From positions 930,001 through 994,000 of the forward strand of contig NZ_NPZB01000002.1 of assembly GCF_002895945.1 (NCBI RefSeq): 64,000 nucleotides of DNA, given 5' to 3'. Of the stretch, positions 19,090 through 47,588 are shown one piece after another. The notes beneath the pieces were generated by a model. The model was not told the DNA's origin. It saw only the letters and a program-made list of their open reading frames with translations, and made no database searches. The position numbers and the translations under genes were made by a program. Position 1 is the stretch's first letter. Every line of letters starts with the position of its first letter. This DNA is from Solilutibacter silvestris. Lineage in GTDB: Bacteria > Pseudomonadota > Gammaproteobacteria > Xanthomonadales > Xanthomonadaceae.

Positions 19090-19092
19090 GCG

Positions 19093-20100
<1,008 letters not shown>

Positions 20101-20130
20101 CCAGGGCGTGCCCGATAGTGTTGACAGGCC

Positions 20131-21444
<1,314 letters not shown>

Positions 21445-21594
21445 TGGCATCCTGTCCATCCTAGACTTTCGGCACACGTCAGTTGACGGAGGTGCAGTGT
21501 ACTCTTGCAGCTTCGTGTGGTTGGTCCATGCAGTACCCGGATCGCCCGTGGCACGCATCATCCCTACGCTGATCGGCTCCAGGAGTTCTTCTTG

Positions 21595-22764: not shown

Positions 22765-22767
22765 CCC

Positions 22768-25899: not shown

Positions 25900-25916
25900 G
25901 CACGGAGGAGCATGCA

Positions 25917-26558
25917 ATGGGCAAGATACGCGTTGCCGGGTTTTCGTTGTCCCTCGATGGCTTCGGCGCTGGCCCGGAGCAGAGTCTCACCGATCCGCTG
26001 GGCAAGCGCGGCAGGGAACTGCACCCGTGGATGTTCGGCACCCGGATGTTCCATCAAATGATCGGCAAGCCCGGTGGCGAAACCGGAGTGGACAACGATT
26101 TCGCCGAACGTTCCATGGCCGGTTTTGGCGCCTTCATCCTCGGTCGCAACATGTTCGGGCCGATTCGCGGCGACTGGCCGGACAATGAATGGAAAGGCTG
26201 GTGGGGCGATGATCCGCCGTACCACGCGCCGACCTACGTGTTGACACACCATCCACGCGAATCGATCGTGATGGAGGGCGGGACCACCTTCCACTTCGTC
26301 AGCGATGGCATCGACAGCGCGTTGCGGCAAGCGCGCGCCGCGGCCGGAGATCTCGACGTCAAGATCGGCGGTGGCGTGTCGACCGTGCGCCAGTACCTGT
26401 TGGCCGGCGTCATCGACGAATTGCATTTCGCGATCACGCCAGTGGTGTTGGGGCAGGGCGAAGCAATGTTCACCGGCATCGATCTGCCATCACTGGGGTA
26501 TCGCGTGATCGAGCACGTGCCCACCGCCGCCGCGACGCACATCATCCTCGGCCGCTGA
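25917..26558 (+). CDS. Dihydrofolate reductase/RibD C-terminal-domain family protein
   Basis: A 213-residue protein starting VAGFSLSLDGFGAGPEQSL, the first strand of the RibD_C/DHFR-like fold (usually a 'MSLDG' signature). Internal landmarks are FILGRNMFGPIRGDW, PTYVLTHHPRES, GDLDVKIGGGVSTVRQYLLAGVIDELHFAITPVVLGQGEAMF. The GGG..TVRQYL.AGLIDE.H motif is diagnostic of the 'dihydrofolate reductase family' proteins used in NAD(P)H-dependent reductions of unknown substrate. A ribosome-binding site (GGAGGAG) precedes the ATG. Its 3' end overlaps the convergent di-heme peroxidase gene by 69 nt. Confidence 0.85.
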   Translation: MGKIRVAGFSLSLDGFGAGPEQSLTDPLGKRGRELHPWMFGTRMFHQMIGKPGGETGVDNDFAERSMAGFGAFILGRNMFGPIRGDWPDNEWKGWWGDDPPYHAPTYVLTHHPRESIVMEGGTTFHFVSDGIDSALRQARAAAGDLDVKIGGGVSTVRQYLLAGVIDELHFAITPVVLGQGEAMFTGIDLPSLGYRVIEHVPTAAATHIILGR

Positions 26559-27830
26559 AGCAGGCAGCGCCCAAGGCGTTGCTGCGGCGGGCTTGGCGCG
26601 ATATGGATTGTCCTTGAGATAGCCATCGTTCAAGGTACCGAGGAACACGACGATGTCGTCGATATCGGCATCGCCGAGTGACGGTTTGGCGCCCGGATGC
26701 TGGCCGGCGAACGGTGCATCCATGTTGATGTTGCCGTGGTAGCGCGCCGGCAGATCGTCGTAACGGCTCACGCGACCGCGGGCATCGCGTGAATACCAGC
26801 GTTCGGGCGTGATGTCGCGCGTGGCGTAGAACGCGACGGCGTCGCGCAAGTCGTGGAAGACACCATTGTGGAAGAACGTCTTCCTCAGCGCGACATTGCG
26901 CAGCGTGGGCGTGCGGAACAGGCCGCAATATTCCGGCTGTCCGGCCTTGTCCTTGCGTTCCGGCCCGCAGGCACCGAGATCGTCGAACGCCGGATCACTG
27001 TTGCGCGCAAGCTTGGGGTTGCGCGGGACACCCAGTGCGATCAAGCCGTAATCCGAAAACACCGGAGGCGTGCCATCGAGGGCGCGCCGCGACAGGTGGC
27101 AGGACGCACAAGCGCCCTTTTTCTCATCCTCGAACAAGGCCAGCCCACGCAATTCCCGTGTGTTCAAACGCGCATGCCCCGTCAGCCACGCATCGTATTT
27201 GCTGGTGTATGGACTGAACTCGGCGTAATCCTCCTCGAAGGCACCGAGCGCGCGGGTCACCGCAGCAAAGGCATCATCGTCGCGATCCAGTGCATGTTCG
27301 CCCAATGCCTTGCGCAGATTGCCCACATACGGCGCACGTCGTACCGCCGCGGCAATCGCGGTTTTGGTGCTGGCCATTTCGAATTTCGACGTCAACGGAA
27401 TCGCCGCCTGCTGCGCGCTGTTGTCGACACGGCCATCCCAGGTCAGGCCGCCGGTGGGGCCGTTGTCGATGGAATTGTCGGCTTCGTCTTCGGAATCGTG
27501 GTGGTGGTTGTCGTAGGGCGGAATGCGATTGAGATAGGTCAGCGTCGGTGGCGCCCGCAGTCCCTGGTCGCGCAGCAACGGACCGCCCATCTGTACGGCG
27601 AGGGGGTTCGATGGGTTGTAGCGATTGGCGGGATCATGGCAATTCGCGCACGATTGCCGGCCCGATGCCGAGTACGACGGATCGGAGAAGATGCGTCGGC
27701 CGGCATCGCGCAGCAATCCGGTGCGCACGCGAGCGTCTTCGTACCACGAGCCGGAACGACTTGCCGTTGCGATCATCGTGAGTACGATGGCGGACAGGAT
27801 CAACGGGCGTCGCAGGCGTGACATCCGCAT
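26490..27830 (-). CDS. Di-heme cytochrome c peroxidase/MauG-family protein
   Basis: A 446-residue periplasmic protein with an N-terminal signal segment (LILSAIVLTMIATASR). Two c-type heme sites are present: CANCH at about residue 61 and CASCH at about residue 240. The intervening sequence has the conserved LTWDGRVDNSAQQA and a long CGLFRTPTLRNVALRKTFFHNGVF block, with the FRTP.LRNV..T.P(F)FHNG signature of CCP/MauG enzymes. It reduces peroxides or performs MauG-like oxidations in the periplasm. The extended Asp/His-rich loop (PYDNHHHDSEDEADNS) is unusual and could bind metal. It is divergent from the phosphoesterase gene. Confidence 0.87.
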   Translation of the reverse strand: MRMSRLRRPLILSAIVLTMIATASRSGSWYEDARVRTGLLRDAGRRIFSDPSYSASGRQSCANCHDPANRYNPSNPLAVQMGGPLLRDQGLRAPPTLTYLNRIPPYDNHHHDSEDEADNSIDNGPTGGLTWDGRVDNSAQQAAIPLTSKFEMASTKTAIAAAVRRAPYVGNLRKALGEHALDRDDDAFAAVTRALGAFEEDYAEFSPYTSKYDAWLTGHARLNTRELRGLALFEDEKKGACASCHLSRRALDGTPPVFSDYGLIALGVPRNPKLARNSDPAFDDLGACGPERKDKAGQPEYCGLFRTPTLRNVALRKTFFHNGVFHDLRDAVAFYATRDITPERWYSRDARGRVSRYDDLPARYHGNINMDAPFAGQHPGAKPSLGDADIDDIVVFLGTLNDGYLKDNPYRAKPAAATPWALPASAAEDDVRRGGGGHVLDHAIPQ

Positions 27831-27869
27831 ATGCTACAAACCCGGGATGAATTCCGCAGGAGTATTTCG

Positions 27870-29429
27870 ATGATGCGCAGGCTTGCCAGGATCGTTCCCG
27901 TCGCCGTGGCCATTGCCGTGCTGGGGGCGTGCCAGACCACGCCGGGCAAGGGCAGCGCGGGCACTGGAATGCACGACTCCGGGCTCGATGCGATCCAGAC
28001 CATCGTGGTGATCTACGCCGAGAATCGCAGCTTCGACAATCTCTACGGGAATTTCCCTGGTGCCAACGGGGTGCAACACCTCAAACCCGGACAATACCTG
28101 CAGCGTGATCGCGATGGCAGCCTGCTCCAGACATTGCCACCGGTGCCAGGGCAGGGCTTGACGGTCGCATCCGACCCGAAACAGATCACAACCGAAGCAA
28201 CGCGTGGCCATCCCAATCGCGCCTATGCACTGGACGATCCGAACGGCTACGGCGTCTCGCTGGATTACAAGCTGCATGACCTGATCCATGCGTTCTACAA
28301 CCAGCAGATGCAGATCAATGGTGGCAAGAACGACAAGTTTGCCGCCTGGAGCGATGCTGGTGGCGAATCCATGGGCTATTTCGATGGATCGCAAATGGCG
28401 ATGTGGCAGGTTGCGCGCAAGTACGTGCTCGCCGACAACTTCTTCCACGGCGCGTTCGGATCGTCCTTCCTCAACCACCAGTACCTGATCTGCGCCTGCG
28501 CGCCGACCGACTTCAAGACCCAGGCCGACCCGAAGAAATACCAGAACAATATCTCGGTGGTGAACGACGATGGCGTCAGCCTGAAGGTCGATGCCAAGAG
28601 TCCGGCCTCGGCGCTTGATGGCCCGCCGAAATACGTTCACTACGGCGTGCTCACGCCTGATTTCCGTGCGGTCAACACGATGATGCCGCCGTACGCGCCA
28701 TCGGGGAAGCCGGCGCCGAAGAACAGTGCGGAGGCACTCGACCGCATCACCTTGAGTCCGCAATCGGCCGAGACCATCGGTGATCGCCTCAGCGCTGCCA
28801 ATATCGGTTGGGCCTGGTACTCCGGTGGTTGGCAGATCGCGCTGGATGGCGGCAAGGACGCGGAAAAGATCGTCTTCCAATACCACCACCAGCCGTTCAA
28901 TTACTACACGCAATACGCACCCGGCACCGCTGCACGCACGGAGCACTTGCGCGATGGCGGACTGGACGGCGCGAAATTCATCGCCGACATCGACGCCGGC
29001 AAGTTGCCGCCGGTTGCGTTCTACAAGCCGCAAGGCAACCTCAACCAGCACGCCGGATACGCCAGCGTAAGCGCCGGCGACCAGCACATCGCCGACGTCA
29101 TCGCGCACCTGGAACGCAGCCCGCAGTGGAAGAACATGGTGGTGATCGTCACCTACGACGAAAACGGCGGCTGGTGGGATCACGTCGCACCGCCGAAGGC
29201 TGATCGCTGGGGGCCGGGCCTGCGCATTCCATCGATCATCGTGTCGCCGTTCGCCAAGCGTGGGGTCGTCGATCACACTCAGTACGACACCGGCTCGATC
29301 CAGCGCCTGATCAACCATCGTTTCGGCCTTGTGCCATTACCCGGCATCCTCGAACGCGATGCCGCGTTGAAGGCGCATGGCGAAGCGGCGATGGGCGACT
29401 TCACTTCGGCACTGGAATTGTGGCACTGA
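27870..29429 (+). CDS. Lipoprotein phosphoesterase (AcpA/phospholipase C family)
   Basis: A 519-residue exported phosphoesterase. The signal peptide ends in the lipobox VLGAC (Cys about residue 18), so it is a lipoprotein. The catalytic region starts IQTIVVIYAENRSFDNLYGNFPGA, the phosphoesterase-family signature with the metal-binding Glu-Asn. FHGAFGSSFLNHQYLICAC follows, then VVIVTYDENGGWWDHVAPP with the second metal-binding Asp-Glu-Asn-Gly, and RIPSIIVSPFAKRGVVDHTQYDTGSI. It belongs with acid phosphatases and phospholipases C such as AcpA; head-group specificity is not readable. ATG 27870 has CAGGAG at 8 nt. Confidence 0.88.
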   Translation: MMRRLARIVPVAVAIAVLGACQTTPGKGSAGTGMHDSGLDAIQTIVVIYAENRSFDNLYGNFPGANGVQHLKPGQYLQRDRDGSLLQTLPPVPGQGLTVASDPKQITTEATRGHPNRAYALDDPNGYGVSLDYKLHDLIHAFYNQQMQINGGKNDKFAAWSDAGGESMGYFDGSQMAMWQVARKYVLADNFFHGAFGSSFLNHQYLICACAPTDFKTQADPKKYQNNISVVNDDGVSLKVDAKSPASALDGPPKYVHYGVLTPDFRAVNTMMPPYAPSGKPAPKNSAEALDRITLSPQSAETIGDRLSAANIGWAWYSGGWQIALDGGKDAEKIVFQYHHQPFNYYTQYAPGTAARTEHLRDGGLDGAKFIADIDAGKLPPVAFYKPQGNLNQHAGYASVSAGDQHIADVIAHLERSPQWKNMVVIVTYDENGGWWDHVAPPKADRWGPGLRIPSIIVSPFAKRGVVDHTQYDTGSIQRLINHRFGLVPLPGILERDAALKAHGEAAMGDFTSALELWH

Positions 29430-29620: not shown

Positions 29621-29827
29621 AAGTTGCTGCACATCTGCAGGGACCAGGCCACCCTCCAGGTGTTCATGCCGCGTGTATTCCGCGGACAAGATGAAAAACG
29701 CCACTGAACAAAACATCAAGGCCCAGAAACCGGAAATGAACCACCACAGCCTGGATGATTCGAGATGGGGCACGTCAAGTCTTTGCTCCCATTCAAGGTC
29801 CATCACATGCTGGCGAAAGAGTTTCAA
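29546..29827 (-). pseudogene. Truncated HlyD-family (bacteriocin-type secretion adaptor) fragment
   Basis: About 93 residues remain from a TTG-type start at 29827. LKLFRQHVMDLEWEQRLDV corresponds to the typical MxLFRxEAL N-terminus of HlyD-like adaptors found with peptidase-containing ABC exporters. A single transmembrane helix follows (WWFISGFWALMFCSVAFFIL), then EYTRHEHLEGGLVPADV, matching the usual GEYTRK..V.GYLVP stretch. The remaining 300 or so residues (coiled coil, lipoyl and barrel domains) are missing; the frame runs on into unrelated sequence. It lies just downstream of luxI on the same strand, so it may once have been co-transcribed with it. Confidence 0.6.
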
Positions 29828-29879
29828 TGGCTGGCACCTTGAAGAATTCCGGTCTTTGTCATGCGGTCCCCTGGACCAG

Positions 29880-30437
29880 TTATTCGTCGATTTCGATCCA
29901 ACAAGCAACAGTGGGGTGACCTGCCACCAAAATTGGAGGCCCCGCTCTGTGGGTGTGAAAACCAGTTTTTTGAAGCAATCTTTCCATGCCTATTGGAGAC
30001 ACCGTAATCAGCCGTTTGGCTCCCTGGCGCTTGGCGTAATTTGCCGCGACATTCAATATTTCGATCGCCAATTTCGAGGGATGCTGTGGGCCTGGGCTGC
30101 TCCCCTGGTTCAGGTGGCCAGTCGCAGCAAATCGTGAAAGCTCCCATACCTCCTTGGAACAGGGGGGCTTCAAGCCATTCAGCAGGTTGGGGAAAACTTC
30201 CCCGAGCAGGTACGGACGAGTCGTTGGCAGCAACCTGGCGCAACCGATAATCCTTCGGTTTTCGTCCCGGGCCAGGACATAGATGGTGTCGTTGCGATCG
30301 AACTGGTCAAGTTCCAGCTCGTTGGTGGCGTCGAGTTCCCACCCAAGCTTCTCTATGAAGATGTCCCGCCGATATTTGCCCAGCTCATGGAACAAGCGGT
30401 CGGACAGGGAAGCCGCGTTCCCGAATAAGACATCCAT
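29880..30437 (-). CDS. luxI: Acyl-homoserine-lactone synthase
   Basis: A 185-residue LuxI-family enzyme making an N-acyl-homoserine lactone from S-adenosylmethionine and acyl-ACP. The conserved residues are visible: R and F in YRRDIFIEKLGWEL with the following W, E/D in ELELDQFDRNDTIYV, the Arg in GCARLLPTTRPYLLGEVFP, and the Glu/Arg of EVWELSRFA. VAANYAKRQGAKRLITVSPIGMERLLQKTGF is the usual C-terminal signature. A strong ribosome-binding site (GGGGGAGA) precedes ATG 30437, and a lux-box palindrome lies 61 bp upstream. Base composition is clearly more AT-rich than the housekeeping genes. The acyl chain cannot be predicted reliably. Confidence 0.94.
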   Translation of the reverse strand: MDVLFGNAASLSDRLFHELGKYRRDIFIEKLGWELDATNELELDQFDRNDTIYVLARDENRRIIGCARLLPTTRPYLLGEVFPNLLNGLKPPCSKEVWELSRFAATGHLNQGSSPGPQHPSKLAIEILNVAANYAKRQGAKRLITVSPIGMERLLQKTGFHTHRAGPPILVAGHPTVACWIEIDE

Positions 30438-30497
30438 GGACCCTTTCTCCCCCTATGCCCTGCAGGGGAAGGCTGTCAGAAACCAGCTGTCCGGATA

Positions 30498-30515
30498 ACT
30501 GTCAGATTTGACACT
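30498..30515. promoter_or_regulatory. lux box upstream of luxI
   Basis: An 18-bp near-palindrome, ACTGTCAGATTTGACACT, with perfect TGTCA/TGACA arms and one mismatch further out. It is very close to LuxR/CepR-type boxes (CTGTNNNATNNNACAG). On the minus strand its distal arm could overlap a -35 element (TGACAG) for luxI. This suggests LuxR-AHL activation, hence autoinduction. Confidence 0.75.
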
Positions 30516-30603
30516 GAAGTACTTGAAAGATGCCCCGCAAGTGACTTGCGAAGACAATCGAAATCCAGTATTTGTTGTCGGCTTGTGTGAATGCTTTTCT
30601 TCG

Positions 30604-31080
30604 TCATTCAAGCTGAATATTTGCTTCGTGCAACGGGGGTGTTTTTTGGTGCATTGCATATCGATTTTCGATTGCATCAAGAACCGTTTCTTGCCAACCA
30701 AAGCATTCCAGAACTGCTTCGAGCAAGACCGCTGTCTTGAAAGGCCCGACCTCGGCTCCGTCGTTGTCCAGGAACATGACATTGGTTCGGAGTGAGTTCT
30801 GGCGCACGAGCATTGATGGGATTCTCATCGGGTCGAAAATCCAATCCCATCCCAGGGAGATGACTGGTACGGAGGTGCTGACCCATTCCGTGTAGCCTTC
30901 GATCGTCGAAACGCTGGCACCTTCCATGGGCGTCTTCTCGTGCGCATCTTCCTCAAGGCCAGATACAAAATGCTCCATGCGAATACCGCGGAAATTTCTC
31001 AGATAGAGTTTTACATAACCATCTTGGTCGAGAATCATCATTGCATTCCTCTGCCTATCGACTCGCAGCTTAGAATTCAT
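30604..31080 (-). CDS. rsaM: RsaM-family (DUF4902) quorum-sensing modulator
   Basis: About 158 residues of the RsaM/TofM-type DUF4902 family, recognised from NAMMILDQDGYVKLYLRNFRGI, ASVSTIEGYTEWVS (conserved GYTEWVS), VISLGWDWIFD, and RTNVMFLDNDGAEVGPFKTAVLLEAVLECFGWQETV. In Pseudomonas fuscovaginae and Burkholderia, members sit between luxI and luxR genes and dampen AHL production. The protein has no DNA-binding motif. Its placement here between luxI and luxR is the family's hallmark. Start options are ATG 31119, 31080 and 31041; the last has AGAGGA at ideal spacing, whereas 31080 keeps the RNAM stretch I believe conserved in relatives. Confidence 0.8.
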   Translation of the reverse strand: MNSKLRVDRQRNAMMILDQDGYVKLYLRNFRGIRMEHFVSGLEEDAHEKTPMEGASVSTIEGYTEWVSTSVPVISLGWDWIFDPMRIPSMLVRQNSLRTNVMFLDNDGAEVGPFKTAVLLEAVLECFGWQETVLDAIENRYAMHQKTPPLHEANIQLE

Positions 31081-31156
31081 CCCGCGAATTTGGAGTGAAC
31101 GCAATGGTCGCGTTCTCATTCCAGCTTTTCAAGTTGATATGGCTTGCGAGGCTCAT

Positions 31157-31197
31157 GGGATGGTTGTACTGCTACCCCGAAGCAGTACAACCATCCC
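31157..31197. repeat. Perfect 17-bp hairpin between rsaM and luxR
   Basis: Arms 31157-31173 (GGGATGGTTGTACTGCT) and 31181-31197 are exact reverse complements around a 7-base loop (ACCCCGA). There is no U-tract on either side, so it is not a standard intrinsic terminator. It lies in the rsaM/luxR divergent leader, about 100 bp before the lux box near luxR. Confidence 0.85.
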
Positions 31198-31293
31198 CCC
31201 ATTGCAGGACATCTCCCCCCATGGAAGTGCACCCCGACTTCTTTCGGGTGTATTGTCTTGACGGTAACCTACCTTAGTCCGCGAACCGAGCGT

Positions 31294-31311
31294 ACTGTCA
31301 ATTCAGACAGT
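31294..31311. promoter_or_regulatory. lux box upstream of luxR
   Basis: An 18-bp site with perfect 6-bp arms, ACTGTC-AATTCA-GACAGT, the same length and half-site as the box before luxI (ACTGTCA half). It lies about 53 bp upstream of the chosen luxR start, so LuxR probably controls its own gene as well. Confidence 0.7.
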
Positions 31312-31364
31312 CAAGCGCTGCCGACGGTGCCTTGGCATGGCTGGAGATCAATGGGAGGGTGGCT

Positions 31365-32081
31365 TTGCGAGAGTGGAAGGAAGATCAGCTTCAAGCCCTG
31401 ATTGACGGAGGCAGTCAAGAGGAACTGTTTGAAAAAATTGCCTCGTTCGGGCGTGAGATCGGATTCGAGCATTGTGCGTATGGCGTGCGTGTTCCTTTGC
31501 CAATATCAAGCCCGAAAATCATCATGCTGAACAACTATCCGCAATCCTGGCAGCGGGTATACCAGGAACAGGGTTATTTGCAAATTGATCCTGCCGTTCG
31601 TCATGGCATGTCATCGATTTCCCCCTATGTCTGGTCGGGCATTGATAAAAAAAGCGAAGAGATCCCATTTTGGGAGGACGCGAATTTCCACGGCATAGCT
31701 TCGGGGTGGGCACAACCCGTGCAGACCCCAAACGGTATCCGTGGCATGTTTACCGTTACCAGAAGTGCGGAATTGATAACAGCCGGCGAGATTCGCGATC
31801 GAATGCCGAAATTGCTATGGCTAAGCCAAGTGGCCCATTACGGGTTGGCACAACATCTGATCCAGCGCCCGAATTCCGCGCGTTTGAACAAGCTGACGGA
31901 TAGGGAGCTGGAAGTCATGCGCTGGATCGCGGAAGGCAAGACTTCGAGCGAGATTGCCATCATATTGAGCATTTCCGAACGCACGGTGAACTTCCACACG
32001 AACTGTGCGATGACCAAGCTCGAAGCGCCCAACAGGACAGCGGCAGTGGTGCGTGCGGTGCTGTTCGGGCTGATTACCTAG
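31365..32081 (+). CDS. luxR: LuxR-family AHL-binding transcription factor
   Basis: About 238 residues. The N-terminal autoinducer domain has the expected aromatic and acidic residues (a Tyr/Trp pair in NNYPQSWQRVYQEQGYLQIDPAVRHG; WEDANFHGIASGWAQPVQTPNGIRGMFTVTRS). The C-terminal GerE-type HTH reads LTDRELEVMRWIAEGKTSSEIAIILSISERTVNFH, with the TxREREVL..A.G and ERTVNFH hallmarks. No ATG fits the frame; GGGAGG at 31353-31358 supports a TTG start at 31365 (GTG 31359 and TTG 31332 are alternatives). The product should bind the luxI-made AHL and the two lux boxes. Confidence 0.92.
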   Translation: MREWKEDQLQALIDGGSQEELFEKIASFGREIGFEHCAYGVRVPLPISSPKIIMLNNYPQSWQRVYQEQGYLQIDPAVRHGMSSISPYVWSGIDKKSEEIPFWEDANFHGIASGWAQPVQTPNGIRGMFTVTRSAELITAGEIRDRMPKLLWLSQVAHYGLAQHLIQRPNSARLNKLTDRELEVMRWIAEGKTSSEIAIILSISERTVNFHTNCAMTKLEAPNRTAAVVRAVLFGLIT

Positions 32082-32097: not shown

Positions 32098-33102
32098 ATG
32101 ACCTTGAACATGCTCAAAGCCTTATACGCCGGACGCGGCCCGGTGCCTCAGGATGTCATCGACGCCGTGCCATTTGATCGCCCATCGCTGATGCAAGGGC
32201 AAGCGCTCGTTGCTGTACTGGCAGCTCCGATCAATCCCAGCGATGTGCTGACCCTGACTGGCGAATACGGCATCCTGCCTCCGCTGCCAGCGGTCGGTGG
32301 CAACGAGGGAGTCGGGCGGGTTGTCGAGCTTGGACCGGACACGCATGGACCCGGGGTGGGGCAGGTCGTGCTGCTGCCCGCCGGCATTGGCACATGGGCC
32401 ACACATGTTGTCGCCCCGGCGGCACAGTTGATTGCGTTGCCGAACAACGCTGATCCGCAGCAATTGTCGATGCTGACAGTCAATCCGCCAACCGCGGCTC
32501 TATTGCTGCGTGATTTTGTCAGCCTTCACAGTGGCGACTGGGTGATTCAGAACAGTGCCAATTCCGGCGTTGGAAGCTATCTCGTCCAATTGGCCGCACT
32601 GCGCGGCGTGAAGACCGTGAACGTGGTGCGTCGCGAGTCCGCAGTCGCGGGTGTAAAAGCGCTCGGCGGTGATGTCGTACTGGTCGATGGCGAAGACCTC
32701 GCTGAACGCGTCAAGGATGCAACCGGTGCCGCCGTGATTGGTCTTGGCGTGGATGCGGTCGGCGGCAGTGCGACTATGCGTCTTGCGGCATGTCTGTCCG
32801 AGGGAGCGACCATCGCGAACTATGGCGCGTTGAGCGGCGAAGCTTGCATGGTGTCTCCACGTGAGCTGATCTTCCGCGACATCGCGCTCAAGGGCTTTTG
32901 GCTTGCGCGCTGGTACCGCATTACACCTCCCGCAGAGGTCCAGGCGCTGCTTGGTGAACTCGCGGGCCTGATCGCCCAGGGCAAGCTGCACACGCCAATC
33001 CAGGCAACCTACGATGTGGCGCAAATCAAGCAAGCGATTACCGCGGCAGCAGCAGGTGAGCGCAGTGGCAAGGTGTTGATTGTGCCCAAGCAAGAAGCAT
33101 GA
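32098..33102 (+). CDS. Zinc-independent MDR oxidoreductase (2-enoyl thioester reductase-like)
   Basis: A 334-residue medium-chain dehydrogenase/reductase. LAAPINPSDVLTLTGEYGILPPLPAVGGNEGVGRVVELG is typical of the MECR/Etr1-like branch. The NADPH-binding region is WVIQNSANSGVGSYLVQLAALRGVKTVNVVRR, with SANSGVG in place of the classic AAAGGVG, again as in trans-2-enoyl-thioester reductases. No structural zinc Cys cluster is present. It starts 16 nt after luxR on the same strand, so it may be read through from luxR. A role in supplying or altering acyl chains for AHL synthesis is a speculation from position only. Confidence 0.82.
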   Translation: MTLNMLKALYAGRGPVPQDVIDAVPFDRPSLMQGQALVAVLAAPINPSDVLTLTGEYGILPPLPAVGGNEGVGRVVELGPDTHGPGVGQVVLLPAGIGTWATHVVAPAAQLIALPNNADPQQLSMLTVNPPTAALLLRDFVSLHSGDWVIQNSANSGVGSYLVQLAALRGVKTVNVVRRESAVAGVKALGGDVVLVDGEDLAERVKDATGAAVIGLGVDAVGGSATMRLAACLSEGATIANYGALSGEACMVSPRELIFRDIALKGFWLARWYRITPPAEVQALLGELAGLIAQGKLHTPIQATYDVAQIKQAITAAAAGERSGKVLIVPKQEA

Positions 33103-33625
33103 CTGGGGAGACTGGATTTTCCATTGGCAAGTCCAGGCAGCATCCATTATACTTCGCATAATGCATATTATGTAAATATACAAGGCCTGCCAAATCAATC
33201 ATTTGGCCCGACTCCACGTTTCCACCAACCTTGACTCCGCCTTCCAGCGCGCATAAGGTTCACCACGCTTTTCCCAAAGGCCACCTTCCTTGGACAGTCA
33301 TAGTCGATCTCGTTTACGGCGCATGAGCCGACGGAACGCCTGATCCAGGAAGTCCGTCCGCTCAGGACGGGCCCGCGATGCCGCCACAGGCATTGCCCCC
33401 AACCCAAACGATATCCGCTCCGGCTTGCCGGTCAGGACGCCTTTGGCATTTCCGTTCGTTCCGGAGAGATCGCCGATGACACCCGATGCCCGCGCTTTGC
33501 TGCCTCCGGCCCGCAATGCCATTGAAAACAACGCCAGCCAGACTGGCGCGATGCCCAATCGCGGCCGCAACCGGCCGCACGTCCATTATTCCCGCCCTTG
33601 TTCCAATCGCCGCTGAGGACGCGCC
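33103..33625. other. 523-bp gene-free gap holding the dif-like site
   Basis: Apart from the XerC/XerD-like site at 33151-33178, I see no supported gene here. The left part (33110-33190) is strikingly AT-rich; the right part regains the GC-rich composition of the chromosome. Short frames on both strands (for example minus 33298-33570 and plus 33425-33616) show no family resemblance, no good ribosome-binding site and no neighbour logic. Confidence 0.6.
33151..33178 (+). other. dif: dif-like XerC/XerD recombination site
   Basis: A 28-bp site with XerC-type arm ACTTCGCATAA, 6-bp centre TGCATA and XerD-type arm TTATGTAAATA. E. coli dif has arms GGTGCGCATAA and TTATGTTAAAT around TGTATA; the CGCATAA core, the TTATG core and five of six centre bases match. 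All FtsK-orienting octamers I found point to it. To the left, GGGNAGGG at 3247, 11739, 18859, 22177, 26452 and 28149. To the right, CCCTNCCC at 34308, 37287, 37292, 37309, 39947, 56213, 57252, 60866 and 62054. It is therefore probably the chromosomal dimer-resolution site. Confidence 0.8.
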
Positions 33626-35377
33626 ATGGTGTTTGTTCCACGTGACCGTCTCAGTCAGCGTGATGCAGCGGAATTGACCGAAGGCCGCATCCTGCCCAAC
33701 GGTTACGACATCGCGGTGTTCGCGCTGGTGTTGGCTGTTGGCATTCTGTTGATCCACGGTGCCGCGGCCATGCACGCGCCGATGGCGGCACTGGATACGC
33801 ACCCGGTGTCGCTCGATATCCGTCATCTGCCGGAATACGGATTGCGTACCACGCTGCGGATGTTCGCGGCGATGGCGGCGTCGCTGCTGTTCACCTTCAC
33901 GTTTGCGACTTGGGCCTCGAAAAGCCGCCGTGCCGAACGCGTGATCGTGCCCGCATTGGACATCCTGCAATCGGTGCCGGTGCTCGGCTTCCTCACCTTC
34001 ACCGTGACGTTCTTCATCGGCTTGGCGCCCAACAGCCAATTCGGCGCGGAATTGGCGTCGATCTTCGCCATCTTCACCAGCCAGGCCTGGAACATGGCGT
34101 TCTCGTTCTATCAATCCTTGCGCACGGTACCGCGCGATCTCGATGAGGTCAGTCGCGGCTACGGTTTCTCGTCGTGGCAGCGTTTCTGGCGGCTGGAAGC
34201 GCCGTTCGCGGCACCGGGCCTGATCTGGAACATGATGATGTCGATGTCGGGCGGCTGGTTTTTCGTGGTCGCGTCGGAAGCGATCACCGTCGGCAATACC
34301 ACCGTCACCCTCCCCGGCATCGGTTCGTATCTGTCGGTGGCGATCGCGCAGAAGAATTTCGCTGCGGTGGGATGGGCCGTGTTGGCGATGGGCGTGTTGA
34401 TCCTGCTCTATGACCAATTGCTGTTCCGGCCGATCGTGGCCTGGGCCGACAAATTCCGTGTCGAGATGACAGCGTCGAACGATCGTCCGCAATCGTGGCT
34501 GTACGACCTGCTGCGCCGCACGCAGTTGCTGAAGCGCGTGATTTCGCCGCTGGAGCGCGCCTGGGATCGCTTGATGCTGGTGCGTTTGTCGAAGCCGATG
34601 CAGACGCAGGCACGTGATGACGATGCCGCGTCCGGTTGGGGCGACCGCGTGTGGCAGGTGTCGATCTGGATCGCCGGCGCCATCGGTCTGTGGATCGTCT
34701 TCGAATACGCGCGCCGCACGTTGACGTGGAGCGATCTCGCCGCTGCACTCGGCGGCGGTTTCGCTACCCTGCTCCGCGTGATCGTGCTGATCGCGCTGGC
34801 GAGCGTGGTGTGGGTGCCGATCGGCGTGTGGATCGGATTGCGTCCACGCGTGGCGCAACTGGTGCAGCCGCTGGCGCAATTTTTCGCAGCGTTCCCGGCC
34901 AACGTGTTGTTCCCGTTCGCGGTGGTCGCGATCGTCTCGACGCACGCCAATCCCGACATCTGGTTGTCGCCGCTGATGGTGCTCGGCACGCAGTGGTACA
35001 TCCTGTTCAACGTGATCGCCGGCGCCAGCGCCTTCCCCTCCGACCTGCGCGAAGTGTCCAGCGTCTATCGCCTGCGTTCGTGGACATGGTGGCGACGCGT
35101 GATCCTGCCCGGCATCTTTCCCTACTACCTGACCGGTGCACTCACCGCATCAGGTGGCTCGTGGAACGCGAGCATCGTTGCCGAACTCGCGCGCTGGGGC
35201 GACGACAAGGTCGAAGCCTACGGACTGGGCTCATACATCGCACACGCCACCGAAGCCGGCGACTATCCGCGCGTGGTGCTCGGTGTCGGCGTGATGGCAG
35301 TATTCGTCACCCTCTTCAATCGCGCGCTGTGGCGACGGCTGTATGTCTATGCCGAACGTCGCCTGCGCCTGGACTGA
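33626..35377 (+). CDS. ABC importer permease with two fused BPD domains
   Basis: A 583-residue inner-membrane protein consisting of two BPD_transp_1 permease domains in tandem. Each has about six helices and an EAA-like loop: VPRDLDEVSRGYGFSSWQRFWRLEAPFAAPGLIWN in the first half and FPSDLREVSSVYRLRSWTWWRRVILPGIFPYYLTG in the second. The class is the nitrate/sulfonate/taurine type (SsuC/TauC relatives), but fusion of both subunits in one chain marks a subgroup of unknown substrate. The ATPase gene follows 16 nt downstream; no substrate-binding protein gene is adjacent. A ribosome-binding site (GAGGA) lies upstream of ATG 33626. Confidence 0.87.
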   Translation: MVFVPRDRLSQRDAAELTEGRILPNGYDIAVFALVLAVGILLIHGAAAMHAPMAALDTHPVSLDIRHLPEYGLRTTLRMFAAMAASLLFTFTFATWASKSRRAERVIVPALDILQSVPVLGFLTFTVTFFIGLAPNSQFGAELASIFAIFTSQAWNMAFSFYQSLRTVPRDLDEVSRGYGFSSWQRFWRLEAPFAAPGLIWNMMMSMSGGWFFVVASEAITVGNTTVTLPGIGSYLSVAIAQKNFAAVGWAVLAMGVLILLYDQLLFRPIVAWADKFRVEMTASNDRPQSWLYDLLRRTQLLKRVISPLERAWDRLMLVRLSKPMQTQARDDDAASGWGDRVWQVSIWIAGAIGLWIVFEYARRTLTWSDLAAALGGGFATLLRVIVLIALASVVWVPIGVWIGLRPRVAQLVQPLAQFFAAFPANVLFPFAVVAIVSTHANPDIWLSPLMVLGTQWYILFNVIAGASAFPSDLREVSSVYRLRSWTWWRRVILPGIFPYYLTGALTASGGSWNASIVAELARWGDDKVEAYGLGSYIAHATEAGDYPRVVLGVGVMAVFVTLFNRALWRRLYVYAERRLRLD

Positions 35378-35393
35378 ATTTCGAGAAATACAC

Positions 35394-36713
35394 ATGAACG
35401 CAATCATCGCTCCCGTTTCAGTGCAACCACTCGTCGAAGTTCGTGGCGTGCGCAAGGTCTTCGACAAGGGCACCGGCACGCCGCTGGTGGTGCTCGACAA
35501 TGTCGATTTCAGTCTTGGTTCCGGCGAAATCGTCGGATTGCTCGGCCGTTCCGGTTCCGGCAAGTCGACGTTGTTGCGCACGATCGCCGGGCTGATCAAG
35601 CCGAGTGCGGGTGAAGTGCGCTATCGCGACCAGCCCGCCGGCTCACCACCGGACGATCTGGCGATGGTGTTCCAGAGTTTCGCGTTGTTCCCGTGGCTGA
35701 CGGTGCTGGAAAACGTCGAGGTCGGACTGGAAGCGCGTGGCATCGCCGCGAGTGAGCGTCGGCAACGCGCACTGGCGGCGATCGATCTGATCGGTCTCGA
35801 TGGTTACGAAAGCGCGTATCCCAAGGAAATGTCGGGGGGCATGCGCCAGCGCGTCGGCTTGGCACGCGCATTGGTGATGCATCCGAAAGTGTTGCTGATG
35901 GACGAACCGTTCTCCGCGCTCGATGTCCTCACCGCCGAAACGCTGCGCACCGACCTGCTCGATCTGTGGGCGGAAGGTCGCATGCCGATCGAATCGATCC
36001 TGATGGTGACGCACAACATCGAGGAAGCGGTGCTGATGTGCGATCGCATCGTGATCTTCGGTGCCAATCCCGGACGCGTGATCAGCGAGATCCATGTCAC
36101 CTTGCCGCAGCCGCGCAACCGCCTCGCCCCAGCGTTCCGGGCATTGGTCGAAGACATCTATGCGCGGATGACCGCACGCGCGCCGATCTCGCATCGCGAA
36201 CCGATCGCGCCGAGCGCCGGCGGTATCGCCATGCCATTGACGCCGGTGTCCTCGAACCTGCTCGCGGGTTTGCTGGAAGCAGTCGCCGCCGAGCCCTACC
36301 ACGGCCATGCCGATTTGCCACCGCTCGCCGCCAGCCTGCAGATGGAGATCGACGAACTGTTCCCGATCGCCGAAGCATTGCAATTGCTTGGCCTCGCCGA
36401 ACTGGAAGGCGGCGACTTGCGCCTGACGTCGGAAGGACGATATTTCGTCGAGAGCGACATCGACGGCCGCAAGCGTTTGTTCGCGCAACATCTTGCCTCG
36501 CGCGTGCCGCTGGCCGCGCACATCCGCCGCGTGCTCGACGAACGGCCGACCCATCGCGCGCCGTTGCATCGTTTCAGTGATGAGCTGGAAGACCACATGT
36601 CCGAGGATTACGCTGAAGACACGCTGCACGCGGTGATCAGCTGGGCGCGCTACGCCGAATACTTCGCCTATGACGAGGAAACAGGATTGCTCACGCTCGA
36701 CAATCCGAGCTGA
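35394..36713 (+). CDS. ABC importer ATPase with C-terminal AAA-associated domain
   Basis: A 439-residue protein. The first 250 residues are an ABC ATPase: Walker A GRSGSGKST, Q-loop VFQSFALFPWLTVLENV, signature MSGGMRQRVGLARAL, Walker B VLLMDEPFSALD and the switch His in MVTHNIEEA. It groups with SsuB/TauB/NrtD. The C-terminal 150 residues (LEAVAAEPYHGHADLPPLAASLQMEIDELFPIAEALQLLGLAELEGGDLRLTSEG) form an AAA-associated, winged-helix-like regulatory domain found in this fused-permease subgroup. Together with the preceding gene it makes a complete transport core. Confidence 0.88.
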   Translation: MNAIIAPVSVQPLVEVRGVRKVFDKGTGTPLVVLDNVDFSLGSGEIVGLLGRSGSGKSTLLRTIAGLIKPSAGEVRYRDQPAGSPPDDLAMVFQSFALFPWLTVLENVEVGLEARGIAASERRQRALAAIDLIGLDGYESAYPKEMSGGMRQRVGLARALVMHPKVLLMDEPFSALDVLTAETLRTDLLDLWAEGRMPIESILMVTHNIEEAVLMCDRIVIFGANPGRVISEIHVTLPQPRNRLAPAFRALVEDIYARMTARAPISHREPIAPSAGGIAMPLTPVSSNLLAGLLEAVAAEPYHGHADLPPLAASLQMEIDELFPIAEALQLLGLAELEGGDLRLTSEGRYFVESDIDGRKRLFAQHLASRVPLAAHIRRVLDERPTHRAPLHRFSDELEDHMSEDYAEDTLHAVISWARYAEYFAYDEETGLLTLDNPS

Positions 36714-36742
36714 GTGCGTCCTCCGGCTCCGACCAGGCATTC

Positions 36743-37633
36743 CTAGAACCAGATGCGGAACCCCGCCACGAAACGCGCCTGCCCGCTACGCTTATCCGCC
36801 TGCCGGCGAAAATCGGCGGTGTGCCCGAATGACTGTTCGCGGGTGACGCCGATGTACGGCGCGAATTGTCGGGTGAATTCGTAGCGCATGCGCAATCCGG
36901 CTTCGGCGGTGCTCAAACCCGAACCAATGCCGCGCAGGCGATCATCCTTGCCGTAGGCGTTCACCTCGACCAACGGTTGCAGGATCAGGCGATTGGTCAG
37001 CAACAATTCGTATTCGGCTTCGAAACGCGCTGCGGTCTGTCCGCGTTGACCGACGTATGCCGTCGCCTCTATCTCGAACTTCTGCGGCGCCAGTCCGCGC
37101 ACGCCGAAAGCGGCGAAACTCTGGCCAGCGCCGGGACTGGAATCATGGCGGACACCGGCCACTGCATTCCACCATGGCAACACGCTGCGGCCATAGAGCA
37201 CTTCCGTGCTGGCTGCTTGAGTATGGCTGGAGACGCGCTCGCCTTCACTGCGCAGCCATACGCGATTGAGATCGGTGCCGATCCAGCCCTTCCCTTCCCA
37301 GGCCACACCCCTGCCCGGCTTGTCATTCCAGGTTTCCAGACGGTTGAGCAACAGATAACTGTGTACCGCGTTGTCCATCATGTCGTGACCGCCATGTGGC
37401 GGTGTTGCAGCAGCGCGGTCGGCATCGGTCAAGGGTGGAATCGGCATCGTGGAAGGCACCGGTGTCTTTTTCGTTACATCTTTCTTGTGCGTCGCATGGT
37501 CGTCCGCAGGCGTCGACATCTGCGAGTGGTCCATGCCCTGCATTTGGGAATGATCCATGGATTGTGCGCCCGCATGCGTTGCCACAAATGCAACGCCAAC
37601 CACCGCAAACAGGTACGTCTTCGCCACCACCAT
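36743..37633 (-). CDS. copB: Copper resistance outer-membrane protein CopB
   Basis: A 296-residue protein with a signal peptide (TYLFAVVGVAFVATHAGAQS). A Met/His-rich copper-binding stretch follows (MDHSQMQGMDHSQMSTPADDHATH), then the CopB outer-membrane barrel. The barrel region shows the conserved WNDKPGRGVAWEGKGWIGTDLNRVWLRSEGE, EVLYGRSVLPWWNAVAGVRHD and a C-terminal aromatic strand FVAGFRIWF. It binds or exports excess copper at the outer membrane. Its ATG overlaps the copA stop as TGATG, so the two are coupled, the usual copAB order. Confidence 0.92.
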   Translation of the reverse strand: MVVAKTYLFAVVGVAFVATHAGAQSMDHSQMQGMDHSQMSTPADDHATHKKDVTKKTPVPSTMPIPPLTDADRAAATPPHGGHDMMDNAVHSYLLLNRLETWNDKPGRGVAWEGKGWIGTDLNRVWLRSEGERVSSHTQAASTEVLYGRSVLPWWNAVAGVRHDSSPGAGQSFAAFGVRGLAPQKFEIEATAYVGQRGQTAARFEAEYELLLTNRLILQPLVEVNAYGKDDRLRGIGSGLSTAEAGLRMRYEFTRQFAPYIGVTREQSFGHTADFRRQADKRSGQARFVAGFRIWF

Positions 37634-39414
37634 CACTCTCCTACCCGCACGGTGCGCATCATTCCCGCTTCCATGTGGTACAGCAGGTGACAGTGATAGG
37701 CCCAGCCGCCAAGCGCGTCGGCACGCACGCGATAGCTGCGACGCGTTCCCGGTGGCATGTCGATGGTGTGCTTGCGCACCATGAAGTTCCCATGTTCGTC
37801 TTCGAGATCGCTCCACATGCCGTGCAGGTGGATCGGATGCGTCATCATGGTGTCGTTGACCAGCACGATACGCACGCGCTCGCCGTAGGTGAGCTTCAGT
37901 GGCGCGGCATCGGAGAACTTCTGGCCGTTGAACGACCATGCGAATTTTTCCATGTGGCCGGTCAGATGCAGCTCGACTTCGCGACCGGGATTGCGACCGT
38001 CGGGGTCGTCGAAAGCACTGCGCAACATCGAATAACTCAGCACCTTGCGGCCGTTGTCGCGCAGGCCGATGCCGGGATCATCGAGTTTCGGCGACGGTGT
38101 CATCGCCAGCATGTCCACCAGTGGATTGCCGTGTTCGCTGACCGGGTGCGATTGCATGTCGCCCGAACCGTGGCCCATGTCCATGCCGGGCATCGCGGAC
38201 ATGTCGTTGCCGGAATGTTCCATGCCCTGCATCGATCCCATGTCGTGACCCATCGCCATGTCGGACATGGTCAACAACGGTCGCGGATCGATGGCAGGAA
38301 TCGGCGCGCGCAATCCTTCGCGCACCGCGAGCGTGCCGCTGATGTATCCGGTACGCCCGAGATCCTGCGCGAACAAGGTATACGCGTCCTGCCCCGACGG
38401 TTCAACGATCACGTCATAGGTTTCCGCCGGCGCGATGCGGAATTCATCGACCGTCACTGCATGCACGTACTGGCCATCGGCTGCGACCACGGTCATCTTC
38501 AGCCCCGGAATGCGCAGGTCGAAATGCGTCATCGATGATCCGTTGATCACGCGCAGCCGCACTTTTTCACCCGGCTTGAACAGTCCCGTCCAGTTGCCGA
38601 GCGACGTGGTGCCGTTCATCAGATAGGTATAGGTATTGGCATTGACGTCAGAGAGATCGCTCGGCGACATGCGCATGCCGCCCCACATCCTGCGATCCGC
38701 CAGCGTCGCCGACAGCCCGTTCCTCCGTGCATCACGGATGAAATTGCCGGCCGTGCGCTGATAGCGGTTGTCGTACATCGACATCTTCTTCAAGCGCGCG
38801 AACAAATGTTGCGGATCGAGATCGGTCCAATCGCTGAGCAACACCACGTAATCGCGATCGTAATGGAAGGGTTCGGGTTCGATCGGATCGATGATCAGCG
38901 GGCCATACAGTCCGCGCTGTTCCTGGAATCCGGAATGGCTGTGGTACCAGTACGTGCCCGCTTGCCGCACATGGAAGCGATAAAGATAACTTTCCCCGGG
39001 TGCGATGCCGTCGAAACTCATTCCCGGAACGCCATCCATGTTCGCCGGCAGCAGGATGCCGTGCCAATGGATCGATGCTTCATTGCCGTGCATGCCACCG
39101 CGCTGCAAGGTATTGCGCACGCGCAGATTCACGGTGCTGCCTTCCTTCCAGCGCAACAGCGGCGCCGGTAGTGAACCATTGACGGTCACTGCGTTGCGGA
39201 CATGTCCGGTGAAATCGACCGGCGTTTCGCCAATGGACAGATCGAACTCGGTGCCAGACAGGACTTCGGGCTGTCCGGCCGAACGCAGTGCCCAACCCGG
39301 CCTCGGCCATAGCCCGAGCCCCAGCAGCGCTCCGCCAGCGGCGATGCCCTGGACGAAGCGGCGTCGTGCCGGCACCGCCATTTCATCCTGCAACTCATTG
39401 ATTTCAAAAGCCAT
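37633..39414 (-). CDS. copA: Multicopper oxidase CopA (copper resistance)
   Basis: A 593-residue periplasmic multicopper oxidase with a twin-arginine signal (ARRRFVQGIAAGGALLGLGLW). All four copper-binding blocks are visible: SIHWHGILLP, GTYWYHSHSGFQEQ, MTHPIHLHGMWSDLE and the T1-site YHCHLLYHMEAGM. Between domains 2 and 3 lies a Met/His-rich insert (MSDMAMGHDMGSMQGMEHSGNDM and following residues) typical of CopA/PcoA, which binds extra Cu(I). It oxidises Cu(I) to Cu(II). ATG 39414 has GGAG 6 nt upstream; a GTG at 39420 is an alternative. A MerR-type promoter lies upstream. Confidence 0.94.
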   Translation of the reverse strand: MAFEINELQDEMAVPARRRFVQGIAAGGALLGLGLWPRPGWALRSAGQPEVLSGTEFDLSIGETPVDFTGHVRNAVTVNGSLPAPLLRWKEGSTVNLRVRNTLQRGGMHGNEASIHWHGILLPANMDGVPGMSFDGIAPGESYLYRFHVRQAGTYWYHSHSGFQEQRGLYGPLIIDPIEPEPFHYDRDYVVLLSDWTDLDPQHLFARLKKMSMYDNRYQRTAGNFIRDARRNGLSATLADRRMWGGMRMSPSDLSDVNANTYTYLMNGTTSLGNWTGLFKPGEKVRLRVINGSSMTHFDLRIPGLKMTVVAADGQYVHAVTVDEFRIAPAETYDVIVEPSGQDAYTLFAQDLGRTGYISGTLAVREGLRAPIPAIDPRPLLTMSDMAMGHDMGSMQGMEHSGNDMSAMPGMDMGHGSGDMQSHPVSEHGNPLVDMLAMTPSPKLDDPGIGLRDNGRKVLSYSMLRSAFDDPDGRNPGREVELHLTGHMEKFAWSFNGQKFSDAAPLKLTYGERVRIVLVNDTMMTHPIHLHGMWSDLEDEHGNFMVRKHTIDMPPGTRRSYRVRADALGGWAYHCHLLYHMEAGMMRTVRVGE

Positions 39415-39476
39415 TACCACTCCAGACTGCGACTATCCGGGCGCATGTCGTCTGCCCGGCCATCTTCCAAGTCTCG

Positions 39477-39507
39477 ACTCTAAAGTCTGGAGCGACTCCA
39501 AGGTCAA
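39477..39507 (-). promoter_or_regulatory. MerR/CueR-type promoter of copAB
   Basis: On the minus strand the -35 is TTGACC (39507-39502) and the -10 is TAGAGT (39482-39477). They are separated by 19 bp, the lengthened spacer typical of MerR-family activated metal promoters. The spacer holds a dyad (TGGAG-TCG-CTCCA) centred between the elements. This predicts copper-induced expression by a CueR-like activator; no such gene lies in the window. Confidence 0.65.
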
Positions 39508-39560
39508 GGGCGGACGTCCGCACTGTCCGCAACCATGACTTCAGTTGGGTTGACGGGGTA

Positions 39561-39602
39561 TTGACGAGGGCTGATTTGGTGTTATAGTTCAATACAACAC
39601 CA
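39561..39602 (+). promoter_or_regulatory. Promoter and overlapping operator of the gntR-ABC operon
   Basis: TTGACG (39561-39566) and TATAGT (39583-39588) are 16 bp apart, a strong sigma-70 pair. The -10 sits inside a palindrome with perfect 7-bp arms, TGGTGTT (39577-39583) and AACACCA (39596-39602), separated by 12 bp. This layout fits autorepression by the YtrA-type GntR regulator encoded downstream. Confidence 0.7.
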
Positions 39603-39620
39603 GTCAAACAGGACGCCACC

Positions 39621-39845
39621 ATGAACATCGGAGCAACCGCCCGCAGGCATGGCACCACGGCTCTGTTGAGCCTCGCCATCGCCGGGTTCGGCACCGCCAC
39701 CGCGCTGGCCGGTTCGCCGGTCGCACAAGCCGTCGCGCCGGTCGCCGCGGTCAAGGCGCACCCGACCTCGGGCAAGGCCAGCCGAATCGTTCGCATCCGC
39801 CAGGCCCAGGCGGTCCCGTTCTTCGCCTTCCCGCCAAGGATCTGA
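39621..39845 (+). CDS. Small secreted peptide leading the gntR operon
   Basis: A 74-residue frame with a recognisable signal peptide: positive N-terminus, hydrophobic core (LLSLAIAGFGTATALAG), likely cleavage after ALA. The remaining mature part is about 45 residues, Ala/Val-rich then basic (KASRIVRIRQAQAVPFFAFPPRI). It directly follows the promoter/operator and ends 1 nt before gntR, so it is the first cistron of that operon. I do not recognise a family. Translation is plausible from position, spacing and signal peptide, not from homology. Confidence 0.55.
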   Translation: MNIGATARRHGTTALLSLAIAGFGTATALAGSPVAQAVAPVAAVKAHPTSGKASRIVRIRQAQAVPFFAFPPRI

Positions 39846-39846
39846 C

Positions 39847-40218
39847 ATGTCACCCGTGCAATGGGCCGACGGCAGCCCGATTTACCGTCAACTCAAGGAA
39901 AAGGTCATCGCCATGATGCTCGATGGAGTCCTCAAGCCGGGCGATGCCCTGCCCTCCGTGCGCCAAGTCGCCGCGGAATACCAGCTCAACCCGATCACCG
40001 TGTCGCGGGCCTATCAGGAACTCGCCGACGAAGGCATGGTCGAGAAGCGTCGCGGCCTCGGCATGTACGTGACCGACAGCGCCCGCAACCATCTGCGCAA
40101 CAACGAACGCGAGCGCTTCCTCAAGGAAGAATGGCCGCTCATCATCGAGCGCATCCAGCGCCTCGGTTTCGAACCCGCCGAACTGCTCGATCCAACCAAG
40201 AAGTGGAGCGCACCATGA
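39847..40218 (+). CDS. YtrA-type GntR-family repressor
   Basis: A 123-residue protein. The N-terminal winged helix-turn-helix reads SPIYRQLKEKVIAMMLDGVLKPGDALPSVRQVAAEYQLNPITVSRAYQELADEGMVEKRRGLGMYV, a textbook GntR domain. Only a short C-terminal helical tail follows (ERFLKEEWPLIIERIQRLG), as in the small YtrA subfamily. Such regulators repress their own operon encoding an ABC exporter, which matches the downstream genes and the palindrome in the promoter. The stop overlaps the ATPase start as ATGA, so the two proteins are co-produced. Inducers of the family include cell-envelope stress; none is shown here. Confidence 0.92.
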   Translation: MSPVQWADGSPIYRQLKEKVIAMMLDGVLKPGDALPSVRQVAAEYQLNPITVSRAYQELADEGMVEKRRGLGMYVTDSARNHLRNNERERFLKEEWPLIIERIQRLGFEPAELLDPTKKWSAP

Positions 40219-41075
40219 CCGCCGTCATCACCGCACGTGGCCTGCGCAAGGCTTACAAGAACTCACTGGCGCTCGACAACGTCAGTTTCGAGATCCCGGC
40301 CGGCCGCATCGTCGGGTTGATTGGCCCCAACGGCGCCGGCAAGACCACCGCGCTCAAGGCCATCCTCGGACTCATTCCGTATGAAGGATCACTGGACGTC
40401 CTCGGCCGCGATCCGCAGACCCAGCGCGATGCCTTGATGAACGATGTCTGCTTCATCGCCGACGTCGCCGTGCTACCGCGCTGGCTGAAGGTGAAGAACG
40501 CCGCGGAATTCGTCGAAGGCGTGCATCCGCGCTTCGACCGCAGCCGCTTCGAACGCTTCATCGCCCCCACCCAGTTGAAGCCGGAGATGCGCGTCGGCCA
40601 GATGTCCAAGGGCATGATCGTGCAGCTGCACCTTGCCTTGGTGATGGCGATCGATGCACGCCTGCTGGTGCTGGACGAGCCGACGCTCGGCCTCGACATC
40701 CTCTATCGCCGCGAGTTCTACCAGCGCCTGCTGGAGGACTATTTCGACGAAGGCAAGACGATCATCGTCACCACCCACCAGGTCGAGGAGATCGAACACA
40801 TCCTCACCGACGTGATGTTCATCCAGAACGGCAAGCTGGTGCTCAACGCGCCAATGGAAGAGATCGGCCAGCGCTTCACCGAAGTGCTGGTGAATCCCGA
40901 CCGCCTCGACGCCGCCCGCGCACTCAAACCGATCAGCGAACGCGCGATGCCGTTCGGCAAGTCCATCCTGCTATTCGATGGCGTGCCACAAGTACAGCTC
41001 GCCGCGCTTGGCGAAACCCGCAACCCGGGCATCGCCGACCTGTTCGTCGCCACCATGAAGGGGACCTACGCATGA
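40215..41075 (+). CDS. ABC exporter ATPase of the GntR operon
   Basis: A 286-residue ABC ATPase. It has Walker A GPNGAGKTTALKAILG, the signature region RVGQMSKGMIVQLHLALVMAI (a relaxed QMSKGM form common in this drug/peptide exporter class), Walker B LLVLDEPTLGLDI, and switch His in IIVTTHQVEEIEHIL. The C-terminal 60 residues match the accessory domain of YtrB/CcmA-like ATPases. It overlaps the gntR stop (ATGA) and the permease start (ATGA), so three genes are tightly coupled. It powers the membrane protein encoded next. Confidence 0.9.
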   Translation: MTAVITARGLRKAYKNSLALDNVSFEIPAGRIVGLIGPNGAGKTTALKAILGLIPYEGSLDVLGRDPQTQRDALMNDVCFIADVAVLPRWLKVKNAAEFVEGVHPRFDRSRFERFIAPTQLKPEMRVGQMSKGMIVQLHLALVMAIDARLLVLDEPTLGLDILYRREFYQRLLEDYFDEGKTIIVTTHQVEEIEHILTDVMFIQNGKLVLNAPMEEIGQRFTEVLVNPDRLDAARALKPISERAMPFGKSILLFDGVPQVQLAALGETRNPGIADLFVATMKGTYA

Positions 41076-42136: not shown

Positions 42137-42167
42137 GCCCGCAAGATCACCTGATTCGGAGAACACC

Positions 42168-43757: not shown

Positions 43758-43900
43758 GAACCTGTCCACGATCCTGCTGCGCTCGCCCTGCGGTCCGCGT
43801 GCGGTGCTCGCAATGCTCACGTATCAGCACATACGCTGCGCTTGCTCCGCTCCGCCACGAACCGCAGGCCTTCGCTCGCGACGGATCGTGAACAGGTTCT
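43757..43900. repeat. 144-bp palindromic repeat element (REP/MITE-like)
   Basis: The ends are inverted repeats: AGAACCTGTCCACGATC at 43757-43773 and GATCGTGAACAGGTTCT at 43884-43900, matching with one mismatch. Inner segments also pair imperfectly (CCTGCGGTCCGCGTGCGG against the complement of CCGCCACGAACCGCAGG), so the whole element can fold into a long stem-loop. It starts on the last base of the lipoprotein stop codon and reaches to 8 bp from the fumC stop. It may act as a bidirectional terminator between these convergent genes. Confidence 0.75.
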
Positions 43901-43907
43901 AGACGCC

Positions 43908-45308
<1,401 letters not shown>

Positions 45309-45359
45309 GGCGCGCTCCGGCGGGATCGGAAAGCGACGAGGATACGCCCGAGGCGCTAA

Positions 45360-46736
<1,377 letters not shown>

Positions 46737-46779
46737 TCGGCATTGTCATCCCTGGCCACGCTCGGGATGACTCAATGAA

Positions 46780-46808
46780 GAAAGGGCCGCGTGATGCGGC
46801 CCTTTTTG
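46780..46808. terminator. Bidirectional intrinsic terminator between purB and gst
   Basis: AAAGGGCCGC (46781-46790), loop GTGAT, then GCGGCCCTTT form a perfect 10-bp stem. A T-run follows on the plus strand and the AAGAAA before the stem gives one on the minus strand, so it serves both convergent genes. Confidence 0.92.
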
Positions 46809-46814
46809 TCGGAA

Positions 46815-47574: not shown

Positions 47575-47588
47575 AGTGACTCTCCGCC

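Follow-up and report, generated by a model that had tools for sequence, protein, structure and literature searches.

The gap between two genes at 33103-33625 of the stretch analysed here, a 64-kb window of the Solilutibacter silvestris draft assembly (C2:930001-994000; three contigs of 1,664,168, 1,181,591 and 1,243 bases, 2,847,002 in total, the first two being denoted C1 and C2), raises the question of whether a 28-mer within it, ACTTCGCATAATGCATATTATGTAAATA, is the chromosomal dif. A first-pass annotation had proposed a 28-bp XerC/XerD-type site at this place (Table 1), and the sequence scan bears this out. In the window the 28-mer is the sole match at three or fewer mismatches, shuffled versions of the window gave 0 such matches in 100, and the runner-up stands 11 mismatches away. 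A scan of the whole assembly for dif-like 28-mers likewise returned this one match at up to three mismatches. Relative to the E. coli dif, the 28-mer has mismatches at 7 of 28 positions, distributed 3/1/3 over arm, centre and arm, and it was by this comparison that the two arms were assigned. The description of the surroundings as an AT-rich gap applies to the 28-mer itself (75% AT) and to 33131-33198 (62%), but not to the gap as a whole, which is 41% AT. We consider it almost certain that the 28-mer is the single chromosomal dif of S. silvestris and that the locus is a canonical XerCD/dif terminus. The evidence for this is of the sequence level, and comprises the site, its uniqueness at up to three mismatches, the switch of both KOPS and GC skew, an antipodal counterpart in three relatives and the genes for XerC, XerD and the FtsK gamma domain. 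The terminus position of this genome is now fixed to within a few kilobases.

Table 1. Features of the window that bear on the assignment of dif (positions are those of the window unless marked C2)
Feature	Position	Strand	Remarks
Six KOPS, GGGCAGGG, starting at 3247, 11739, 18859, 22177, 26451 and 28149	3247..28156	+	left of dif, pointing right
luxI-DUF4902-luxR block	29636..32081	.	52.7% GC; left of dif
Left neighbour of dif, quinone/zinc-type oxidoreductase-like gene	32098..33102	+	all profile matches below curated cut-offs
Cumulative GC skew maximum	33115 (= C2:963115)	.	scans of the window and of C2:858301-1181591
dif site	33151..33178	+	sequence scan; comparison with E. coli dif
XerC arm of dif, ACTTCGCATAA	33151-33161		arm assigned by comparison with E. 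coli dif
Central region of dif, TGCATA	33162-33167		
XerD arm of dif, TTATGTAAATA	33168-33178		arm assigned by comparison with E. coli dif
Right neighbour of dif, ABC transporter permease	33626..35377	+	PF00528
Nine KOPS starting at 34308, 37287, 37292, 37309, 39947, 56213, 57252, 60866 and 62054	34308..62061	-	right of dif, pointing left

It is standard knowledge that KOPS guide FtsK to dif and are denser close to it (PMC5357621). By eye, the first-pass annotation had counted six copies of the octamer on the plus strand to the left of the site and nine on the minus strand to its right, with none in the opposite sense. A computed scan of both strands for GGGNAGGG shows this polarity test to have been right: 15 of 15 copies in the window face dif and the search for opposite-facing copies gave none, the only correction being to one listed start, 26452, which is off by one. 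Under a coin-flip model such unanimity has p = 3e-5, and the number of copies itself exceeds what dinucleotide shuffles of the window yield (n=100; mean 6.45, maximum 11). We also compared convergence on dif among 3,693 degenerate XXXNXXXX patterns that occur 12 or more times in the window; GGGNAGGG has the top score. Just two of these patterns are fully polarised about dif, namely GGGNAGGG with 15 copies and GAGNAGGG with 12. The latter is a KOPS-like variant, with seven copies to the left on the plus strand and five to the right on the minus strand. Three of the right-hand KOPS had been placed inside copB, and this too is the case: the frame, with a CopB domain (PF05275), holds them at 37287-37316, the copies at 37287 and 37292 overlapping and that at 37309 following soon after.

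The switch seen in the window extends to the genome, in which GGGNAGGG occurs 276 times. On contig 2 there are 85 plus and 9 minus copies to the left of dif, and 35 minus and 2 plus copies to its right. The best single switch on this contig, with which 120 of 131 copies agree, falls in the interval 958149-964308 and contains dif at 963151. Within 100 kb of dif all 32 copies face it, and 246 of the 276 are directed from dnaA (C1:449283) to dif; of the 30 that run the wrong way, 21 are over 700 kb away from dif on the assumption of a reversed contig 2. When the two switch points are left unconstrained, the best pair accounts for 249 of the 276 copies; with the origin placed on a 5-kb grid, the two points are 5 kb away from the position taken for dnaA and about 1 kb away from dif, respectively. 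GC skew turns at the same place, the cumulative curve peaking 36 bp from dif both in the window and over the 323 kb of C2:858301-1181591, which is in keeping with the known rule that dif is located near the skew shift-point (Kono et al. 2011, PMC3025954). Continuous skew was computed over that 323-kb stretch and the remainder of the genome was represented by sampled 20-kb stretches; in these, skew on contig 2 is positive in 17 of 17 stretches left of dif and negative in 4 of 4 right of it, and on contig 1 it is negative in 6 of 6 left of dnaA and positive in 16 of 16 right of it, leaving out the dnaA-containing stretch, which is negative. In these checks, which the first-pass annotation had proposed, KOPS polarity inverts at dif genome-wide and the skew turns there too, and both switch a second time at dnaA on contig 1.

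We further searched for counterparts of the site in related genomes. At up to three mismatches the exact 28-mer finds matches in only 6 of 31 genomes, and its outer bases are therefore not conserved. A looser pattern, allowing up to two mismatches over 20 specified bases, detects exactly one site in 15 of the 17 genomes of the genus, and none in the remaining two (G007 and G015). In the 16 sites compared, those of the 15 genomes of the genus and one from G018, positions 3-12, 17-23 and 25 are invariant, a result favoured by the search pattern itself though the pattern tolerated two mismatches; variation is seen in the centre and in the outer bases. In the three relatives assembled as single contigs, G003, G011 and G013, 17/17, 19/21 and 29/31 KOPS within 60 kb face dif, and the skew maximum lies 3.0 kb from dif in G003 and 3.8 kb from it in G013. 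A motif scan of named genomes recovered at least 119 loci, mainly from beta- and gammaproteobacterial records, with a few labelled otherwise. When 14 proteins of the window were compared with 119 of these loci by tblastn, ABC-transporter and copA genes alone gave matches, at 28-41% identity.

A dif site had also been expected opposite oriC, and here the answer depends on the orientation of contig 2. With the contigs as listed, the arms between dnaA and dif measure 2,178,319 and 667,440 bases (76.5/23.5%) and the expectation fails; with contig 2 reversed they become 1,433,609 and 1,412,150 (50.4/49.6%) and it holds. Were the listed orientation correct, S. silvestris would have very unequal arms of 2.18 and 0.67 Mb. 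The listed order does give these directly, naturally unequal arms have been reported for a P. aeruginosa strain (PMC6199493), and the KOPS fit is equal in both orientations (246/276), since polarity on contig 2 converges on dif either way. The listed order, however, decides nothing: on contig 1, 127 bp at one end recur in inverted form at the other, and likewise on contig 2 (L137, L211, L139, L210), and the assembly is therefore compatible with contig 2 in either orientation. By eye, these contig ends resemble two parts of a transposase gene; the six stretches searched for rRNA at the ends contained none, and one tRNA is found there. The single-contig relatives have nearly balanced arms, of 1,053,049 and 1,082,088 bases in G003 (49.3/50.7%), 1,053,914 and 1,123,939 in G011 (48.4/51.6%), and 1,241,443 and 1,351,378 in G013 (47.9/52.1%), and in all three dif is on the strand opposite dnaA. 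Reversal of contig 2 results in both balanced arms and this same strand relation. Hence we regard strongly unequal arms as improbable and the reversed arrangement, with arms of 1.43 and 1.41 Mb, as the likely true one. The position of dif thereby suggests a contig orientation that is missing from the draft assembly.

Two further explanations bear on the 28-mer itself. One is that the switch in polarity follows from GC skew and gene direction, and that KOPS have no role. Composition surely contributes to KOPS polarity: the sign of the skew flips where the polarity does, and an octamer rich in G would track it. Moreover, the numerical excess of KOPS is limited to GGGCAGGG, which occurs 192 times (129 + 63) as against 46 for its reversed control, while the other three versions, at 84 copies (62 + 22), are below their reversed control (67 + 50 = 117) and yet polarised 62/22. 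That composition should account for the whole pattern is nevertheless very unlikely, given that GGGNAGGG is the most convergent of the window patterns and more numerous than in shuffles, that its genome-wide strand counts are 191 plus and 85 minus as against 94/69 for the reversed pattern, and that the number of copies per 100-kb bin drops, if not monotonically, from 32 in the bin next to dif to 8 at 1300-1400 kb. The other explanation is that the 28-mer is where a mobile element using XerCD attaches, or what is left of such an element, with the true dif elsewhere. Elements that exploit Xer, or IMEX, have been described (PMC5357621), an example being LME-1 of Legionella (PMC9765430), and elements of this pattern do occur next to dif in the genus. 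In G005 (L236:16040-17239) a partial site, matching the XerC arm and centre at 17 of 17 positions, is located at a distance of 1512 bp from dif, within the first part of a frame whose product is an Xer recombination activation factor of the VC1465 family (NF040522, 107.8 bits; cut-off 70). In G011 (C1; L215 and neighbours), partial sites that likewise consist of XerC arm and centre occur twice, at distances of 7,136 and 32,994 bp from dif; like filamentous phages, the nearer interval carries genes for a protein with a Zot domain and for a Rep_trans protein, together with three frames with no Pfam match, and the farther one spans 25.9 kb. The elements of G005 and G011 represent the known IMEX pattern (PMC5357621). 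Under the same criteria the window holds no second or partial site, and neither do the other 10 relatives, in several of which the draft contigs leave short flanks. The assembly has no further match at up to three mismatches, partial sites having been sought in the window, and both KOPS and skew switch polarity at the 28-mer; an IMEX origin for it is thus hardly credible, less so even than the compositional account. The same scan gave weaker second matches in three relatives: in G006 (C17, L242) a second dif-like 28-mer with five mismatches to its own dif, 6.8 kb to the right of it, and in G002 and G010 matches with eight mismatches.

Returning to the 28-mer as dif, its genomic neighbourhood includes a quorum-sensing-type gene set. 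The gene order here is pho - [luxI, DUF4902, luxR] - oxidoreductase - dif - ABC transporter - copB/copA. In G002, G005 and G014, which also have pho on the left, the luxR frame is found across dif in the opposite orientation, ending 24, 22 and 109 bp, respectively, past the right side of the site; luxI and DUF4902 are present in G005 and G014, and the luxR of G002 is partial. Around dif, lux homologues were absent out to 60 kb in G003, G011 and G013, and from the shorter stretches of the nine other relatives. In a tblastn search of plasmids, LuxR matched 1,024 records; the best among the matches listed has 44.6% identity, and one further record falls in the 60-80% band. In GC content the block (56.6% in G005 and 57.4% in G014; Table 1 for the block here) stands apart from pho, at 61-62%. 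The orientation of dif relative to pho is the same here as in the relatives, and a simple inversion that includes dif therefore fails to explain the change of side. We also considered, and rejected, a XerCD-mediated inversion of the block between inverted dif sites, which would leave a reversed right-hand site, whereas the orientation of dif with respect to pho is unchanged. No degraded further copy of dif was found in the window where the block ends on its far side, and the excerpts of literature among the matches listed contain no link of lux genes to dif or the terminus. That this lineage has the block linked to dif, and that the block moved across the site as an inverted unit with dif keeping its orientation, is an unlikely proposal; if true, it would suggest that a signalling module was rearranged by a route linked to Xer or to the terminus.

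The genome encodes the proteins that would act on the site. Two tyrosine recombinases exceed the curated cut-offs of the XerC and the XerD profile, respectively (TIGR02224, 367.3 bits, cut-off 335.15; TIGR02225, 356.4 bits, cut-off 329.6), the broad integrase family having 11 matches overall. A single FtsK gamma domain (PF09397, 99.3 bits, cut-off 30.6) maps to C2:905497-905679, at a distance of 57 kb from dif, in a frame that scores 836 bits, below the 1566-bit cut-off of the equivalog model for FtsK of E. coli length. Among solved structures, the FtsK gamma domains of 2j5o and 2ve8 are nearest to it and are identical to it in the stretch KIGYNRAAR, which we take to be the KOPS-reading helix. 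By analogy with the known E. coli pathway, FtsK would load at KOPS through its gamma domain and be sent along both arms toward the terminus, where it would meet XerC and XerD bound at dif and activate XerD. A chromosome dimer would then be returned to monomers at division by a crossover between its two copies of dif. Binding, strand exchange and dimer resolution at this site are all predicted from that pathway.

In comparison with known systems, IMEX resemble what is seen in the genus, in that such elements flank dif in G005 and G011, and differ in that none was detected at dif in this window (PMC5357621). No integrated element is apparent at dif here, whereas at least two relatives have taken some up. 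The XerCD/dif site of S. silvestris is otherwise a further example of a textbook system and causes little surprise. It departs from the E. coli type in the bases of the site, with no mechanistic difference seen, and shares with it a single 28-bp two-arm site with a 6-bp centre at the turn of GC skew, genes for XerC, XerD and an FtsK gamma domain, and KOPS of the form GGGNAGGG that converge on the site.
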